From Pseudomonadota bacterium (GTDB taxonomy: Bacteria; Pseudomonadota; Gammaproteobacteria; Steroidobacterales; Steroidobacteraceae), in contig JAJXZV010000230.1 of NCBI GenBank assembly GCA_021779875.1, positions 1-17,311 of the forward strand: 17,311 bases of DNA. Reading direction: 5' to 3'. The stretch's first letter is position 1, and the number at the start of each line of letters is the position of its first letter. Shown in pieces: positions 2,904 to 9,592 of the stretch. A model generated the notes under the pieces. The model searched no databases. It was not told the DNA's origin and worked only from the letters and a program-made list of their open reading frames with translations. Made by a program: the position numbers and the translations under genes.

Positions 2904-4433
2904 TCAGCCGGTCGCGCCGCGCCGGCGCGCGACGTAGTCGGCGATCGCGTCCCGCACCCCGGCGTCGAGCGGCGGCGCGGAGTATTCGGCCAGGAGCTTC
3001 TTCCAGAGCGCCGTGGCGCGCTGGGTGGCGTTGCGCGAGCCGGCCTCGGTCCAGCTCTCGAAGCCGGACCAGTCGGACAGCAGCGGCCGATAGAACGCGG
3101 ACTCGTAGCGGGCGAGGGTGTGCGGCGCGCCGAAGAAATGCCCGCCCGCGGGGACCTGCTTGATCGCCTCGACCGCGAGATCGTCGTCGTCGAAGCGGAC
3201 CGGCTTCAATATCTCGGCCCAATGGCGCAGCAATTCGGCGTCGACCACGATCTTCTCGAGGGACGCCGACAGGCCGCCCTCGAGCCAGCCGGCGGCGTGG
3301 TTGATCAGGTGGCTGTGGCTGAGGATCGCCGCCTGCAGTGAGAAGGCCGTCTCGTAGGTGGACTGGGCGTCGACCGCGGGCGAGGCGTTCACCGCGCTGC
3401 TGCGCACCGGCAGCCTCAGGCGGCGGCCGATCTGCGCGCCGGCGAGCACCGCGTGGACATATTCCGGTGTGCCGAACGCCGGCGAGCCGGTGCGCATGTC
3501 GACGTTGGAGGTGAATCCGCCCATGACGCAGGGTGCTCCCGGACGCAGCAGCTGGCACAGGGCCACGATGGCCAGCGCCTCGGCCGTCTGCTGCACCAGG
3601 GCGCCGGCCAGTGTCACCGGGGCCATGGCACCCATCAGCGTGAAGGGCGTGATCACGACGCATTGCCCGTGTCGCGCCATGACCATGATGTTGTCGAGGA
3701 TCTCCTCGTCCACGCGCCGCGGCGAGTTGACGTTGGTCACGGTCATGAGCGTCGGCCGCGCCGCCAGCTCCTCGATGGCGCAGCCGTGCTCGATCGCCGA
3801 CATGGCGATGGCGTCCTGCGCCTGGATGCCGCCGACCCCCCGGGCGGCCCAGACGATGTCCGAGCATTCGATGTGCGCCTGATAGGCCGCCAGGTGGCGC
3901 AACGGCACGGGCACGTCCACGGGCTCGACGACGATGCCGCCCTGCCAGTGCAGGATGCCTAGCGTGTGGCATACCTTCAGGATGTTGCGAAACGCCTCGA
4001 GGTCGCCGTAGCGGCGTCCACCCTCCAGATCGCTCACGTTCGGCGCGCCGTTCACCGGACCGAAGTTCACGACCTTGCCGCCCACGTGCAGGTGCCGGGC
4101 GGGGTTGCGCGCGTGCAGGACGAAACGCTCCGGTGCGTGGGCGAGCTGCGCCTCGACCAGGTCGCGCCCGAGGCGCACCATCTGCGTCTCGGGGTCCACC
4201 AGCGCGCCGGCCCGGGCGTAGACCTCACGCGCGGCGGGATGGCGGATCTCGAGGCCGGCTTCCTCGAGCACGCGGAAGGCCGCGTCGAGGATGCGCTCGA
4301 CCTGTTCGGCGCTCAGGATCTCGAGGGGCGGCCAGGGATTCTCCAGCCGCGGCAGCGGCGCGAGGGACGGTCCCGTGGAGCGGGGCGCGCGCCCGCGCTC
4401 GCGGCGCCGGGGAGATGAGGGGATCTCGTTCAT
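2904..4433 (-). CDS. MttB-family (trimethylamine/betaine methyltransferase-like) protein, non-pyrrolysine
   Basis: This 509-residue TIM-barrel protein belongs to the MttB superfamily (COG5598), whose members transfer a methyl group from a methylated amine to a cognate corrinoid protein. Recognisable stretches include GPVNGAPNVSD, SDIVWAARGVGG, TVTNVNSPRRVDEEILDN, TPFTLMGAMAPVTLAGAL and the C-terminal INHAAGWLEGGLSASLEK. The gene is uninterrupted by any in-frame amber codon, so it is the non-pyrrolysine type like glycine betaine methyltransferase MtgB, not a true trimethylamine MttB. The first 35 or so residues are Arg/Pro-rich and may be unstructured, or the true start may be later. The Shine-Dalgarno match is weak. 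No corrinoid protein gene or reductive activator is in the window. The PhnD-like gene follows it, and a betaine-type importer lies 2 kb away on the other strand. The substrate is unproven. Confidence 0.85.
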   Translation of the reverse strand: MNEIPSSPRRRERGRAPRSTGPSLAPLPRLENPWPPLEILSAEQVERILDAAFRVLEEAGLEIRHPAAREVYARAGALVDPETQMVRLGRDLVEAQLAHAPERFVLHARNPARHLHVGGKVVNFGPVNGAPNVSDLEGGRRYGDLEAFRNILKVCHTLGILHWQGGIVVEPVDVPVPLRHLAAYQAHIECSDIVWAARGVGGIQAQDAIAMSAIEHGCAIEELAARPTLMTVTNVNSPRRVDEEILDNIMVMARHGQCVVITPFTLMGAMAPVTLAGALVQQTAEALAIVALCQLLRPGAPCVMGGFTSNVDMRTGSPAFGTPEYVHAVLAGAQIGRRLRLPVRSSAVNASPAVDAQSTYETAFSLQAAILSHSHLINHAAGWLEGGLSASLEKIVVDAELLRHWAEILKPVRFDDDDLAVEAIKQVPAGGHFFGAPHTLARYESAFYRPLLSDWSGFESWTEAGSRNATQRATALWKKLLAEYSAPPLDAGVRDAIADYVARRRGATG

Positions 4434-4533: not shown

Positions 4534-5091
4534 TCACCGAATCCATAGCGCAGCGCCCGCGAAGAATTCCAGATTGAACGCCATGTGCAGGAACACGCCG
4601 GGCCACACGCTGTCGTGCCGGTCGCGGAGCCAGCCGAGCGCCAGCGATGGCAGGAACGTGGCGAGCGCCCAGGCCGGCGGGTGATGGAGCCCATGCAGGG
4701 CGACGAAGGCCGCGGAGGTCAGGAGGTTCGCGGCCGTGAGCCCGTGAAACGGACGGCGCTGCGCCGGTCGCCGGCGCAGCGCTCCCTGAAGCGCGCCCCG
4801 GAAGAGCCACTCCTCGAGAAGGGGCTGCACGAGCACCGCGCCCAGCCATTGGTCCAGACCGATGAGCGACGAGCGATTCGGGTCCATGCCGGGCAGCGTC
4901 CACGGCACGATCGCCGCGACGCATCCCACCAGGGCGAGCGCCCACCACCACGGATCGCGCCGGAAGGCGCCGGCGTGCCGGAGCGCCAATCCCTCGATCA
5001 GTCCTTCCGCCACGCCGGCGGGTGAGAGCGCGAAAACGGCACGCCCCCCGGGACCGGGGGGCGTGCCGCCGTTGGCCGAACCGCCGAGCAC
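4534..5091 (-). CDS. CPBP-family glutamic intramembrane protease, MrtJ-like (JDVT-CTERM processing)
   Basis: This is a small multi-pass membrane protein (185 residues from GTG 5091) of the CPBP/CAAX-protease (Abi) family. All three active-site motifs are present: EEWLFR (E93, E94, R98), an ALHGLHH segment with H133, and FLHMAFN with H169 and N173. Four or more membrane helices flank them. Family members of this size act as sorting proteases for C-terminal signals, and the gene lies 1 bp after a surface protein that ends in such a signal. That arrangement points to MrtJ, the JDVT-CTERM protease. The start is uncertain. From GTG 5091 the TAG-C-GTG arrangement suggests coupling, but codons 8-20 form a strong terminator hairpin. 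GTG 5013 or TTG 4989 would avoid it and still keep every catalytic motif. Confidence 0.85.
   Translation of the reverse strand: MLGGSANGGTPPGPGGRAVFALSPAGVAEGLIEGLALRHAGAFRRDPWWWALALVGCVAAIVPWTLPGMDPNRSSLIGLDQWLGAVLVQPLLEEWLFRGALQGALRRRPAQRRPFHGLTAANLLTSAAFVALHGLHHPPAWALATFLPSLALGWLRDRHDSVWPGVFLHMAFNLEFFAGAALWIR
5037..5068 (-). terminator. Rho-independent terminator of the JDVT-CTERM protein gene
   Basis: A near-uninterrupted GC hairpin pairs 5037-5050 with 5055-5068 (CGGCACGCCCCCCG stem, 14 bp) around a four-base loop. On the minus strand it is followed directly by TTTT. It lies 25 bases after the TAG at 5093-5095. It therefore stops transcripts of the surface-protein gene before the protease body, or attenuates them. 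Confidence 0.6.
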
Positions 5092-5092
5092 G

Positions 5093-7963
5093 CTACTTCG
5101 CGGCCTTGGCCGTCCGCCGTGCGGGCCGGATCAGCAGGCCGCCGAGCGCGGCCGCCAGCAGCGCGGTGAGCGTGGGATCGAACGGCCGGCCCGGATCGTA
5201 GGCGCATCCGCCGCCGCCGGAGTCACCGACCGCCACGGACAGGCTCGCCTGGTTGTTGGTGGGCACGGGATCCTTCAGATCCGAACTCACCGTGCCGGTG
5301 ACGCTCATGCGGCCCGCCGTGACCAGCCGCACCGAGAAGGTCGCCGAGTACTGCGCGCCGGCGGCGAGCGCCGGGGTCGTGCAGGTCACGATGGCTCCCG
5401 CGGCCGTGCAGGTCGAGCCGCTGCCCGAACTCACGAAGGTCATGCCGCTCGGCAGGGTGATGGTCATCTTCACGTTCGTGGTGCCGATGCCCGCGACGTT
5501 GGTGACCGTCGCCGTGAGGGAGGCGACGTCACCGGCCCGGAAGATCCCGGCGCCGGTGCCGAGCTGCAGCTGCAGGTCCGCAAGCCCGGTGATCGTCAGG
5601 GACACCGAGGCGGTGTCGTTGTCGGGCTGCTGATCGCGCTCCTGCGCGCTGGTGCCGAACAGGGCCGAGACCGGTCCGTCCACCGCCCCGGAGACCGTCA
5701 GGGTGCCGGTCACGGCGGCGCCGCTCGCCATCGTGCCGATGGCGCAGTCCACCGAGCCGTCGATGCTCGAGTACGTGCACGTGCCCTGACTGATCGCGAT
5801 CGACTGATACACCAGCCCCGGCGGCAGGAAGGCGGCCGCCTGGGCACCATTGGCCGTATCCGGGCCGTGATTGGTGACCGTGAACGCGATGTCCGTGTTG
5901 GTCCCGGAGTTCACCGGGGTCGCGCTGCCGCTCGCCGTGATGCCCATGTCCGCGTTGCCGGTGACCTGAACGTGCACCGTCGCCGTATTGTTGGCGAGAA
6001 TCGGGTCGATCGGCGCCGTGGAGGACACGTTGCCGACGATGGTCAGCGTTCCCGGTGAGGTGGTGGAACCGACCAGCGTCGCCGTCGCCAGGTCGCCGAC
6101 CGCCATGGTGCCCACGGTGCAGGTCACCACGCCCGCCGAGACCGTGCAGGGGCTGGTGCCCGCGGTGGTGGTCACCGAGGCGCTGGTCAGCGTGTACCCG
6201 GCCGGCAGCGCGTTGGTATAGATGAGCACGCCGCTCGCCGAGGTGGTCGCCGACGGATCGTTGTGCGCCACGATGGTGACGGTGATCGAGTCACCCGTGA
6301 AACTCTGGTCCGGCGCCGTCATGTTCTCGATGTGCACGTCGGCCGTGTGCACGAACAGCTCGAACGCGCCGATGTCGCACACGAAATTCCCGTCGAGATT
6401 GCCGTCCGCCGGGCGGATGTCGCCGCGCTGGTCGTTGTTCGGACATCTGCTGTTGTCGCCGGCGTCGATCGCCGGGCTGTTCGCGGGCAGCGCCATGGTC
6501 TCGGTCGGGCCGCCGTTGTTGCCGAGCGCCTGCACCTGCGGGTTCGTGTTCTTCAAATCGCCCGCGGCGGTGAGATTGCAGCTGTCCGCGTCCTCCAGGT
6601 TGTGGCCGAGCGAGGTCAGGAAGTTGCTCGCGGAGCCGCTGCCGGCGCTGCCGCAGTTCGACAGGACATTGGTGGTGCCGGTCACCACGTTGTTGGCGAT
6701 GATCGTGTTGACGTAGGTGAACTGACCCGACCCGAAGGAACTCAGGCCGGCGCCGCTCGGCGCCTCGGTCGTGCTGGTCGGCGAGATCTTATTGCCGTCC
6801 AGCGTCACGTTGACGAGATTGACCCGGCCATTGGTCGAGATCGCGCCGCCCGTGTCCTGCGCCACGTTGCCGCTCACGGTGGTGTTGGTGAGATTGTCGA
6901 TGGTGGTCGAGCGGCCCGAGATCGCGCCGCCGCCGATCGCGGTGTTGCCGACCAGCGCGCTCGCGCGGATGTCGGTGGTGTGCAGGCCGGTGTCGAAGAT
7001 GCCGCCGCCGTTCTCGGCGTGATTCGGCTTCGAGAACGCCGCATTCGTGACCATGGTGCCGATGGTGGTCGACGTGATGGTCATCCCGGCGGACCCGTAG
7101 ATGCCGCCGCCGTTCGCGGCGGCCGTGTTGCCGCTGACCACGGAGCCGGTCAGCGTGAGCGGCGCCGCGTTGTAGATGCCGCCGCCGTCCGCGCCGCTGA
7201 TGCAGTCGATGACGTGCACGTCGGTCAGCGTGACCGAGTCGATGGCCACCGCGGTCTCCTCGCCGCCGTGGCCGCCGCCGCCGCCCATGCCGCCGCCACC
7301 GCTGCCGCTGCCGTGGGTGATGGTCGGGTCGAGCAGGTTGGTGGCCGCCGAGGTGCCGATGGCGATGCCGCCGCCATGGCGCTTGAACTGCCAGATCTTC
7401 CCGTCGGCGGTGGTTTCGATGTTCACCGGCGGCGGGGTATAGCCGTTCAGCACCGTCAGGCCGCTGATCGAGACGCTGATGTTCGTGCTCACCGCTTCGA
7501 TGTGGAACACCCGATCCGCGGCGCCCGCGCCCTGGTCCGCGGTCGACCACTCGATCACGGTCTTGCCAGAACCGGCGCCGACGATGTTGGTCGAGTCGGT
7601 GATGTTCAGGTCGCCGATCGAGGCGTCGTGGGTCGCGACCGCGACGTAGCCGGAGGCGGTGGACGCGGCGTAGGTCTCGTCCGCACCCTTGATGGTCAGG
7701 ATGATGGGATTGTTCGGATCGTTGATGCCGCTCAAGTCGATGGTATCGACGCCCGCGAGGGCGTTCGACTCCATGATGGCCGCCCGCAGCGTGCATTGTC
7801 CGGCGGCGTCGGCGCAGATGCCGTCGCCCGGATGGGCATCGACCGTATCGGCGGTACTGTTCACGGTGAAAGTGGCCGCGTGGGCCGGCAGCGCGCCGGC
7901 GCACGTCAGGGCAGCGAGGAGCGCGAGGGCCTTGAGGCGCGTCGCGCTGGTGGTAAGGTTCAT
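5093..7963 (-). CDS. JDVT-CTERM-type surface protein: CSLREA, parallel beta-helix, choice-of-anchor Q and DUF11 repeats
   Basis: This 956-residue exported protein is built from recognisable modules. A signal peptide covers about 1-29 (ends PAHA). A CSLREA-type motif (CTLRAAI) lies within about 30-75. A right-handed beta-helix with repeated GGGI turns spans about 190-490 and is broken by a Gly/His-rich insert near 215-234. A choice-of-anchor Q motif (NSPAIDAGDNSRCPNND...CDIGAFE) covers about 494-535. Three DUF11-type Ig-like repeats follow at about 540-667, 668-793 and 794-912, and then the sorting signal. The protein is probably an adhesin-like or structural surface protein displayed on the outer face. 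ATG 7963 has GGAG seven bases upstream. It lies 33 bp after the outer-membrane protein gene, and the CPBP protease follows 1 bp after its TAG. The calls rest on motif recognition, and the ligand is unknown. Confidence 0.85.
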   Translation of the reverse strand: MNLTTSATRLKALALLAALTCAGALPAHAATFTVNSTADTVDAHPGDGICADAAGQCTLRAAIMESNALAGVDTIDLSGINDPNNPIILTIKGADETYAASTASGYVAVATHDASIGDLNITDSTNIVGAGSGKTVIEWSTADQGAGAADRVFHIEAVSTNISVSISGLTVLNGYTPPPVNIETTADGKIWQFKRHGGGIAIGTSAATNLLDPTITHGSGSGGGGMGGGGGHGGEETAVAIDSVTLTDVHVIDCISGADGGGIYNAAPLTLTGSVVSGNTAAANGGGIYGSAGMTITSTTIGTMVTNAAFSKPNHAENGGGIFDTGLHTTDIRASALVGNTAIGGGAISGRSTTIDNLTNTTVSGNVAQDTGGAISTNGRVNLVNVTLDGNKISPTSTTEAPSGAGLSSFGSGQFTYVNTIIANNVVTGTTNVLSNCGSAGSGSASNFLTSLGHNLEDADSCNLTAAGDLKNTNPQVQALGNNGGPTETMALPANSPAIDAGDNSRCPNNDQRGDIRPADGNLDGNFVCDIGAFELFVHTADVHIENMTAPDQSFTGDSITVTIVAHNDPSATTSASGVLIYTNALPAGYTLTSASVTTTAGTSPCTVSAGVVTCTVGTMAVGDLATATLVGSTTSPGTLTIVGNVSSTAPIDPILANNTATVHVQVTGNADMGITASGSATPVNSGTNTDIAFTVTNHGPDTANGAQAAAFLPPGLVYQSIAISQGTCTYSSIDGSVDCAIGTMASGAAVTGTLTVSGAVDGPVSALFGTSAQERDQQPDNDTASVSLTITGLADLQLQLGTGAGIFRAGDVASLTATVTNVAGIGTTNVKMTITLPSGMTFVSSGSGSTCTAAGAIVTCTTPALAAGAQYSATFSVRLVTAGRMSVTGTVSSDLKDPVPTNNQASLSVAVGDSGGGGCAYDPGRPFDPTLTALLAAALGGLLIRPARRTAKAAK
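5096..5218 (-). other. JDVT-CTERM-like C-terminal sorting signal (residues 916-956)
   Basis: The last 41 residues have the tripartite form of a protein-sorting tail. There is a Gly run with one Cys (GGGGC, Cys920), then DP and FDPTL, a hydrophobic helix at 931-945 and a basic cluster (RPARRTAKAAK). The Cys plus FDPTL pattern matches what I recall of JDVT-CTERM. The adjacent CPBP protease supports it. The basic tail would stay cytoplasmic and cleavage would fall near the helix. I expect the Cys to be modified or anchored after cleavage, as proposed for related MYXO-CTERM and GlyGly-CTERM tails, but this is inference. Confidence 0.75.
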
Positions 7964-7996: not shown

Positions 7997-8839
7997 TTAA
8001 GGCTCTCTGGGCTCGATCCAGTCGCGCGGGGCGCTCTTCCAGCCGATCGACACGCCGGCGCCCCAGGACGGCGTGCTGTTGGTGAATCCGGCCGCGAGGT
8101 ACGGCCGGATCGTCATGTGGTGCGGTCCGCTCAAGATCAGGAAGATCGACGCCTGTTCGATCGGGTCGTCGCCGGGGATCGCCGAGGGCCGATAGTCGAA
8201 ACTCACCCCGGCCCGCACGCCGTCGGTGAACAGCATGTCCGCGCCGACGCCGCCGTAGGCGACGTTGCGCAGGCGCAGCAGCGTGGGGCTGCCGCGCACG
8301 ATGTAGCCGGCGGTCGCGAACAGCCCGAACCGGTCGAACTCCTTGAGGGCGTCGATCTGCGCCGCGTAATCGTTCTCGCCCGTTCCCAGGCCCTGCGCGG
8401 CGTCGGCCGTGCCGAATTTGATGCGCGCGGACATGTCCACGTAGAAGCGCGCCTCGTCGGAGTGCAGCACGTCGTACACCGTGGCGGCGGCGATCACGTC
8501 GCCGAGGCCGGAGTGGGTGCCGCCCGGTCCGGGCGCGAACTCGCCCGTGGCATCGACGATGGTCGCCGGTCCCGACACGCTGACGTAGGGGACCGTGACG
8601 CGCACCTCGAACTGATCGACGCGGTAGGCGCCGGTCAGCGGCACGTAGGTCTCGTCGATCGTCTGCGAGCCGCCGTAGCTGCCGCTCGAGTAGTCGTAGC
8701 CCACGGCGGCGCGGAAGGAGGAGTCGGCGAGCGCCGCGTGCGCGGCGAGCGTGGCGGCCAGCAGTGCGCACGCGCCGGGCATCCCTGCCCGGCGCGTGCG
8801 CGATCCGTCGTGAGTCGAAGCGTGAGTCGGTGAGTTCAC
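7997..8839 (-). CDS. Outer-membrane beta-barrel protein, MetA-pathway/transporter-like
   Basis: This 280-residue exported protein is predicted to sit in the outer membrane. A signal peptide runs through residue 38 or so: a basic n-region RTRR, then MPGACALLAATLAAHAALA and a cleavage site before DSS. The mature part alternates short hydrophobic and polar stretches with many Gly and aromatic residues. It carries GLGDVIAAATVYDVL, a hallmark of the phenol-degradation MetA-like barrel group, and ends GAGVSIGWKSAPRDW. I took GTG 8839 as the start because the basic n-region is needed. The internal ATG at 8782 would leave an uncharged signal peptide. The stop of the Asp-Arg repeat gene lies 11 bp upstream and the surface protein starts 33 bp downstream, so this is the middle gene of one operon. 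Its transported substrate is not evident. Confidence 0.75.
   Translation of the reverse strand: MNSPTHASTHDGSRTRRAGMPGACALLAATLAAHAALADSSFRAAVGYDYSSGSYGGSQTIDETYVPLTGAYRVDQFEVRVTVPYVSVSGPATIVDATGEFAPGPGGTHSGLGDVIAAATVYDVLHSDEARFYVDMSARIKFGTADAAQGLGTGENDYAAQIDALKEFDRFGLFATAGYIVRGSPTLLRLRNVAYGGVGADMLFTDGVRAGVSFDYRPSAIPGDDPIEQASIFLILSGPHHMTIRPYLAAGFTNSTPSWGAGVSIGWKSAPRDWIEPREP
8766..8801. repeat. Perfect 15-bp inverted repeat spanning an internal start codon
   Basis: GCGCACGCGCCGGGC at 8766-8780 pairs perfectly with 8787-8801 around a six-base loop. It lies inside the signal-peptide codons of the outer-membrane protein, and the alternative ATG (8782) overlaps the stem-loop junction. No T-run follows on the minus strand, so it is not a classical terminator. 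It could lower translation initiation or protect or stall the transcript. Confidence 0.7.
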
Positions 8840-8850
8840 GATGCGCCGCT

Positions 8851-9402
8851 CTACGGGGTCGGCGGAGCGGCCTTCGAGGCCTGCTCACGCTGTTGCGTCT
8901 GCTCGCGCTCCTGTTGACGGGCCCGTTCCTGCGTCGTGATCTGCGCGCGCGTGAGCGCCTTCGGCAGTTTCGCGCCGCGCTCGCGGGCGCGCGTCTGCAT
9001 CTGCTGCTGGTGTTCGAGCCGGTACTGGATGCGCTCCTGCGCGTTCGCCGTGTTGCGCAGCTTCTCCTGGTACGCCGTGCGTTCCTCGGCGGTCATCAGG
9101 TTGTTGCCGTAGATCCGGTCGCGCGTGCGCAACTGATCGTGCGTGCGATCGTGCAGGCGATCCTGGGTGCGATCCCGGGTCATGTCGCGGTCCTGGGTGC
9201 GATCCATGGTCCGGTCCGTGGTTCGGTCCATGAGACGGTCGCGATCCTGCTGTCGGGTCTGGTCGCCGGAGCGTGTCTGGCTGCTCTGGCCGCCGCCGCC
9301 GGGTGCGCCCTGCGCGCTCTGCGCGAGCGCACCGGTCGTGCCCGCGGCGGCCAGGGCGACCCCGAGGATCACGGGAATCAATCGATCGGTTCTTAGAAGC
9401 AT
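8851..9402 (-). CDS. Small secreted protein with an Asp-Arg repeat region
   Basis: The 183-residue product has a signal peptide (residues 1-27, cleavage after GALA). A Gly/Gln/Ser linker follows, then a strongly repetitive charged region at 53-96 (DRTTDRTMDRTQDRDMTRDR and similar). The C-terminal segment at 97-180 contains IYGNNLMTAEERTAYQEKLR and an Arg/Gln-rich helix. That segment resembles a short helical domain seen in uncharacterised proteobacterial secreted proteins, which I cannot name with certainty. The start is ATG 9402, supported by GGAG eight bases upstream. The frame stays open back to 9528, but the extra 42 residues look non-coding. The repeat has a net alternating charge and could be extended or helical, for example binding polyanions or a surface. 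It leads a run of three envelope genes. Confidence 0.8.
   Translation of the reverse strand: MLLRTDRLIPVILGVALAAAGTTGALAQSAQGAPGGGGQSSQTRSGDQTRQQDRDRLMDRTTDRTMDRTQDRDMTRDRTQDRLHDRTHDQLRTRDRIYGNNLMTAEERTAYQEKLRNTANAQERIQYRLEHQQQMQTRARERGAKLPKALTRAQITTQERARQQEREQTQQREQASKAAPPTP
9115..9246 (-). repeat. In-frame tandem-like DRT/DR repeat DNA
   Basis: Units of about four codons encoding D-R-T-x are repeated with variations (DRT, TDRT, TQDR). At DNA level the plus strand shows recurring GCGATCC / GGTCC / GGGT blocks. Copies have diverged, so this is a degenerate tandem repeat coding region rather than a recent expansion. Confidence 0.6.
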
Positions 9403-9592
9403 TGCGAGTCTCCTCAATGGTCCATTCGTGGTGAAACTGCCACGAAGGATCCGCTGATTTCGCGGCGCGGATAATCGGCCGCTGTACCTAGGCCGGTCGT
9501 GGCATCTACCCAGGCAAGTCCGTGTCAAGACCTAGTTCGGCGGGAGGCGGCGCAGCCGCCGCCGGCGGGATCCTCGATGCCGCGCCCGCCGG
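9403..9592 (-). promoter_or_regulatory. Upstream region of the secreted-protein operon
   Basis: This is a 190-bp gap after the rtcB stop. Read on the minus strand it has TTGACA (9528-9523), a perfect -35 hexamer, but no good -10 at 16-18 bp. GATTAT lies at 9476-9471. An inverted repeat (TTCGTGG at 9425-9431 and CCACGAA at 9440-9446) sits about 20 bases before the ATG and would fold in the 5' leader. A small GC hairpin at 9546-9560 follows rtcB. The promoter is likely here but not defined. Confidence 0.35.

Follow-up and report, generated by a model that had tools for sequence, protein, structure and literature searches.

Does a gene for a large exported protein that ends in a Cys-containing, anchor-like tail form a dedicated pair with the gene for an intramembrane protease that follows it? 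The question is raised by positions 4,534 to 7,963 of a 17,311-nucleotide stretch of DNA (the window), contig JAJXZV010000230.1 of assembly GCA_021779875.1 from a gammaproteobacterium of the family Steroidobacteraceae. This contig is number 280 in a metagenome-assembled genome of 2.37 Mb, which is 72% complete. It is highly probable that this locus represents a dedicated substrate-protease pair of the JDVT-CTERM/MrtJ sorting system, which is myxosortase-like, and the pair is confirmed as a clean further example of a two-gene neighbourhood already present in the literature.

The substrate gene (5093..7963, minus strand, as are all features of the window given below) encodes a surface protein of 956 amino acids. 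The signal peptide that a JDVT-CTERM protein requires is present as a hydrophobic N-terminus, judged from hydropathy only; it is predicted at residues 1-29 (7877..7963), with a hydropathy peak at residues 12-30 and cleavage probably after AHA as placed by eye. It is followed by a CSLREA N-terminal domain at residues 32-67 (7763..7870; TIGR04214, 31.7 bits, cut-off 25), a choice-of-anchor Q domain at residues 474-536 (6356..6544; NF041518, 74.5 bits, cut-off 25), and three DUF11 stretches, the best at residues 672-788 (5600..5950; PF01345, 125.5 bits for the whole protein, cut-off 24.6). The original prediction had read GGGGC, FDPTL, a hydrophobic helix, and a basic tail at the C-terminus of this protein, and all of these are present. 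The JDVT-CTERM model NF033191 matches residues 915-946 (5126..5221) with 32.3 bits against a cut-off of 27, and with 39.7 bits in the genome search. The tail, SGGGGCAYDPGRPFDPTLTALLAAALGGLLIRPARRTAKAAK, has the layout expected of JDVT-CTERM, with GGGGC-AYDPGRP-FDPTL in the matched SGGGGC region, the hydrophobic stretch TALLAAALGGLLI, and the basic end RPARRTAKAAK. Its Cys920 (codon 5204..5206) is common to JDVT-CTERM tails: of the 35 that were read, which were the matches that came with their locus, 34 have it; the only Cys-less one is a match below cut-off in G122, a genome of the same family without MrtJ.

The protease open reading frame (ORF; 4534..5091) encodes 185 amino acids when read from GTG 5091 and belongs to the glutamic-type intramembrane (CPBP) proteases (PF02517, 71.1 bits). 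As proposed, it scores above the cut-off of the MrtJ model NF033192 (107.3 bits, cut-off 75); the remaining CPBP models listed for it all stay under their own cut-offs, and the MrtX model reaches 41.7 bits against a cut-off of 180. The core domain (4558..4842) contains EEWLFR at residues 93-98, H133, and H169-x3-N173. All 20 of the 20 MrtJ proteins that were aligned share E93, E94, R98, H133, H169, and N173 without exception, and the motifs EExxxR, H, and HxxxN named in the prediction are intact. A tree of these 20 rows was too weakly supported to be used. A scan of the genome contigs with a single MrtJ protein returned distant CPBP proteins only (12 loci, 30-40% identity).

Since both proteins pass curated NCBIfam cut-offs, and neither the tail model nor the MrtJ model exceeded its cut-off in any of 14 control genomes, chance is excluded for the tail and for MrtJ. 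The window's own genome holds one MrtJ and one JDVT-CTERM tail over cut-off; a further tail match (14.5 bits, E 0.11) is chance-like, and a second CPBP protein on contig 69 gave no match to the MrtJ model at E 1e-10. The missing 28% or so of this genome may hold more tails.

Co-occurrence of tail and protease proved tight in related genomes. MrtJ was over cut-off in 5 of 150 genomes of the family sample, the tail was over cut-off in the identical five, and the two genes adjoin each other in all five, the order being reversed, with the protease first, in G030. The class sample (369 genomes) contained MrtJ in 53 genomes and the tail in 42, with both in 40; the tail was thus over cut-off in 40 of 53 genomes with MrtJ versus 2 of 316 without it (Fisher P = 1e-39, relatedness ignored). 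At E 5e-4 the corresponding counts are 43/53 and 3/316. The outcomes against which the original prediction was to be judged, a tail without a sorting-signal match and protease homologues equally common without such tails, did not materialize. Weaker matches to the MrtJ model in 12 of the 150 family genomes (45-59 bits) were considered as further myxosortases with new tails and rejected: no Cys-helix tail was seen by eye in the ORFs of 14 short stretches around them, and both weaker matches of G080 are truncated MrtJ relics.

Is the pairing exclusive? The prediction regarded one-to-one pairing as established for the MYXO-CTERM, GlyGly-CTERM, and JDVT-CTERM systems. For the first two, this does not agree with the published accounts: GlyGly-CTERM/rhombosortase is described as many-to-one (PMC3237569), and 35 MYXO-CTERM proteins are counted in Myxococcus xanthus (PMC11980579). 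For JDVT-CTERM, single-tail pairing is common, not general. At E 5e-4, the 53 MrtJ genomes of the class sample carry one tail (28 genomes), two (6), three (4), four (4), seven (1), or none (10); two or more tails were found in 15 of them, or in 12 when only tails over cut-off are counted. A tail lies within 4 kb at 19 of the 54 MrtJ places in this sample, 17 of these tails being upstream on the same strand, and tail and MrtJ were adjacent in 14 of the 28 genomes with a single tail and in 5 of the 15 with several (P = 0.35).

The tail goes with the protease rather than with the body of the protein. Among 23 genomes of the genus, four have an MrtJ over cut-off (G000, which is the window's own genome, G107, G124, and G148), and choice-of-anchor Q domains occur in 6 of the 23, with 10 matches. 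The choice-of-anchor Q proteins beside MrtJ are tailed in 4 of 4 cases, and the three ORFs in genomes without MrtJ (one in G520, two in G522) all end tail-less. A second copy in G107 also has a tail-less end, and the second copies in G124 and G000 run off their contigs. Other bodies adjoining MrtJ include S8 proteases, an ASH/Ig-like protein, acidic repeat proteins (by eye), and an alpha/beta hydrolase (by annotation), among others. A tailed gene, recognized by eye, also precedes an annotated MrtJ on RefSeq plasmids of Paraburkholderia ginsengisoli and Sulfurovum mangrovi. On the latter plasmid (L167 5363-8432), two overlapping S8 peptidase genes and a tailed Ig-like gene stand before MrtJ. 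S. mangrovi belongs to the Campylobacterota, and its MrtJ falls outside the beta- and gammaproteobacterial range given in PMC11980579.

Nearly all genomes with MrtJ also have type II secretion. Of the 369 class genomes, 222 had a GspD above the cut-off, namely 50 of 53 with MrtJ and 172 of 316 without (Fisher P = 2e-9, relatedness ignored); the MrtJ genomes without GspD over cut-off are G247, G327, and G460, and the window's own genome has it. This distribution is consistent with a type II route such as has been reported for MYXO-CTERM and GlyGly-CTERM proteins.

The junction between the two genes calls for a revision of the predicted arrangement. The substrate stop codon and the GTG at 5091 are 1 bp apart, which the original prediction took as the gene gap. 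A terminator-like element (5033..5068), composed of a GC-rich stem of 14 bp without mismatches, a loop of 4 bases (stem and loop, 5037-5068), and a following TTTT (5033-5036), sits inside the proposed protease N-terminus, between GTG 5091 and the conserved part. The 76 nucleotides at 5020-5095 fold with -48 kcal/mol (z -4.66), and a 101-nucleotide fold gave z -3.28. The hairpin was found by eye and folding; a terminator scan, whose rule was 5 T in 8, missed it. Because this stem-loop and T tract lie upstream of the conserved part, the true protease start is probably downstream of GTG 5091, as read from the sequence, and the 1-bp gap probably results from a wrongly assigned start codon. For roughly the first 26 residues, most of the 20 aligned proteins have nothing equivalent. 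GTG 5011-5013, which would give 159 amino acids, is a start codon at least as likely as GTG 5091; inspection by eye revealed a good ribosome site at neither. Among the congeners, G107 and G148 show a stem-loop with a T-rich run in the same place and with other stem letters (z -3.42 and -1.34, respectively; 18 of 200 shuffles fold as well as G148), and in G124 stop and start overlap without a hairpin (z -1.71).

Several observations weigh against a dedicated pair. The tail helix does not reach a strict hydropathy threshold (1.5 over 19 residues), and when the MrtJ profile was searched against solved structures, nothing matched with an E value of 1 or less. With a terminator-like hairpin between them, the two genes are less likely to be simply co-transcribed in the window's own genome. 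All co-occurrence P values ignore the kinship of the genomes. Two class genomes, G274 and G484, have tails over cut-off without MrtJ, and MrtJ genomes are tail-less in 13 of 53 cases by cut-off and in 10 of 53 at E 5e-4. GspD is also present in 10 of 11 tested congeners without MrtJ and is therefore uninformative within the genus. Given that these 10 genomes are tail-less at E 5e-4, and that a motif scan near their MrtJ genes revealed only one divergent tail (in G174; 8 control stretches gave 2 chance-like ones), MrtJ may have other targets. The G174 protein (L122 5782-7353) is an S8 protease beside MrtJ with the tail GGGGGC...DSGLILLP. It was missed by the JDVT-CTERM model, which makes our tail counts lower bounds.

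Taking the locus as a dedicated pair, the signal peptide would direct export of the surface protein, and the C-terminal helix would retain it in the inner membrane with the GGGGC-FDPTL motif facing the periplasm. The tail Cys would probably be lipidated by an enzyme not yet known, and MrtJ, as a glutamic intramembrane protease, would then cut beside this Cys and free the helix. We infer lipidation, cleavage site, type II route, and surface anchoring from the published model of MrtX in Myxococcus.

It is tempting to speculate that the locus extends beyond the pair to a larger cassette, and that an outer-membrane barrel dedicated to this purpose shares in the display of the tailed protein. In the window, a 280-amino-acid exported protein, by eye a probable outer-membrane barrel and a possible cassette partner (7997..8839), is encoded 33 bp upstream of the substrate gene, and upstream of it lies a 225-amino-acid ORF (8851..9528), another possible partner. 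In G080, from another genus of the same family, a 5'-truncated MrtJ relic is followed by homologues of the 225-amino-acid protein (38.5% identical) and of the barrel-like protein (47% identical) in the same order (L153 55-258, 490-1032, and 1084-1857); at the end of a second contig (L154), an MrtJ relic is followed by part of the 225-amino-acid homologue up to the contig end. Further afield, we read 40 MrtJ loci (the window, 4 from the family, and 35 from the class) with rough gene calls that missed MrtJ itself in 6 of 40. An OmpA-like barrel gene stands directly before MrtJ in at least 9 of them (L110, L113, L114, L116, L117, L118, L119, L126, and L134), and in 7 of these 9 a tailed repeat protein precedes the barrel. 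Six of the nine barrels were scanned with Pfam; all six passed the barrel model and five the OmpA model. G327, outside the 40, has the same order (L156 1-1500, minus strand; L157 3-806), and there the reading frame of the tail stays open into an OmpA-like barrel that itself has a signal-like stretch; the remainder of a barrel and MrtJ stand at the start of another contig, so that the frame spans a contig edge.

On the other hand, the gene before MrtJ lies outside the barrel cluster in 25 of the 34 loci with MrtJ resolved. No Pfam or NCBIfam family is matched above cut-off by the barrel-like protein of the window, and a search of the 22 other genus genomes did not find it; to the extent that their incomplete assemblies show, the pairs of G107, G124, and G148 lack it. 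As a constant partner of the pair it was rejected, being present in 1 of 23 genus genomes, the window's own. Plasmid searches gave three distant matches for the barrel-like protein and one for the 225-amino-acid protein; two of the three were opened, one of them annotated, and no MrtJ was listed. We consider it unlikely that a dedicated barrel takes part in display at this locus, and similarly doubtful that MrtJ loci often include, as a third partner, a barrel receiving or holding the tailed protein at the outer membrane. If this were true, the OmpA-like barrel, the G327 fusion that MrtJ could split, and the unrelated barrel-like gene linked to MrtJ in the window and in G080 would be variants of one theme, comprising a sorting protease, a tailed cargo, and the cargo's own outer-membrane seat. 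On the other side of the pair, the window encodes at 2904-4433 a member of the trimethylamine methyltransferase (MttB) family by Pfam; the NCBIfam model for TMA--corrinoid methyltransferase gave 268.5 bits, under its cut-off of 525.

Alternatively, the tail might serve as a C-terminal anchor that mostly stays in place, with MrtJ acting little on it or acting on other proteins. A terminator-limited protease gene would fit this, given the hairpins in G000, G107, and G148, and the defect of Myxococcus lacking MrtX is reported not to be absolute (PMC11980579). The terminator may indeed hold the protease level below that of the substrate, but the amount of an enzyme need not equal that of its substrate, and in G124 the genes overlap at the stop codon. 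Moreover, the window's genome, as far as it is assembled, offers no recognized substrate other than this single tail, and we regard an anchor of this kind as very improbable. That MrtJ is a general CPBP protease, active for example in bacteriocin self-immunity or other peptide processing, and stands beside the tailed gene incidentally would agree with the abundance of CPBP proteins (11 of the 14 control genomes have PF02517 over cut-off) and with the tail-less MrtJ genomes, but is largely refuted, and hardly credible, because the co-occurrence is too tight and the specific MrtJ model is the one that is passed.

A dedicated JDVT-CTERM/MrtJ pair can be set beside three known systems. With GlyGly-CTERM/rhombosortase of Vibrio it shares a removable C-terminal anchor, an intramembrane protease, and type II secretion; GlyGly-CTERM tails are not known to have an invariant Cys. 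The enzyme there is a rhomboid serine protease, whereas the partner here is a CPBP protein, which places it outside the rhombosortases. A like association with type II secretion was reported by Haft and Varghese (PMC3237569). According to their report, the genes adjoin in one-target genomes and lack adjacency in multi-target genomes, some cases being set aside; MrtJ adjacency, in contrast, is not limited to one-tail genomes (14/28 with one tail, 5/15 with more). MYXO-CTERM/MrtX of M. xanthus is similar in its Cys motif, helix, and basic end, in a CPBP protease with EExxxR, H, and HxxxN, and in a type II route, which is reported there and inferred here. It differs in that dozens of tails per genome are described (PMC11980579), and the MrtX model is not reached by our protease.

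The described JDVT-CTERM/MrtJ system (NF033191/NF033192) is matched by both partners over cut-off, by the Gly-rich Cys motif, FDPTL, helix, and basic end of the tail, and by a single tail gene that comes first and adjoins a single MrtJ. The 2025 report describes MrtJ plus one JDVT-CTERM protein as a conserved two-gene neighbourhood, sporadic in beta- and gammaproteobacteria (PMC11980579). The assignment of enzyme to target for which the prediction would use the pair was already available in silico (PMC11980579, citing Haft 2024). In the literature examined, bench tests concern only the relative MrtX, and JDVT-CTERM/MrtJ is predicted. With one enzyme and one recognized target in one genome, the locus provides a tidy test case. 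Our survey adds how exclusive the pairing is, with more than one tail in 15 of 53 MrtJ genomes, and the near-confinement of MrtJ to genomes with type II secretion. Compared with the described neighbourhood, the window contributes a CSLREA/choice-of-anchor Q/DUF11 body and a terminator-like hairpin that separates the two genes in three of the four genus genomes with MrtJ.

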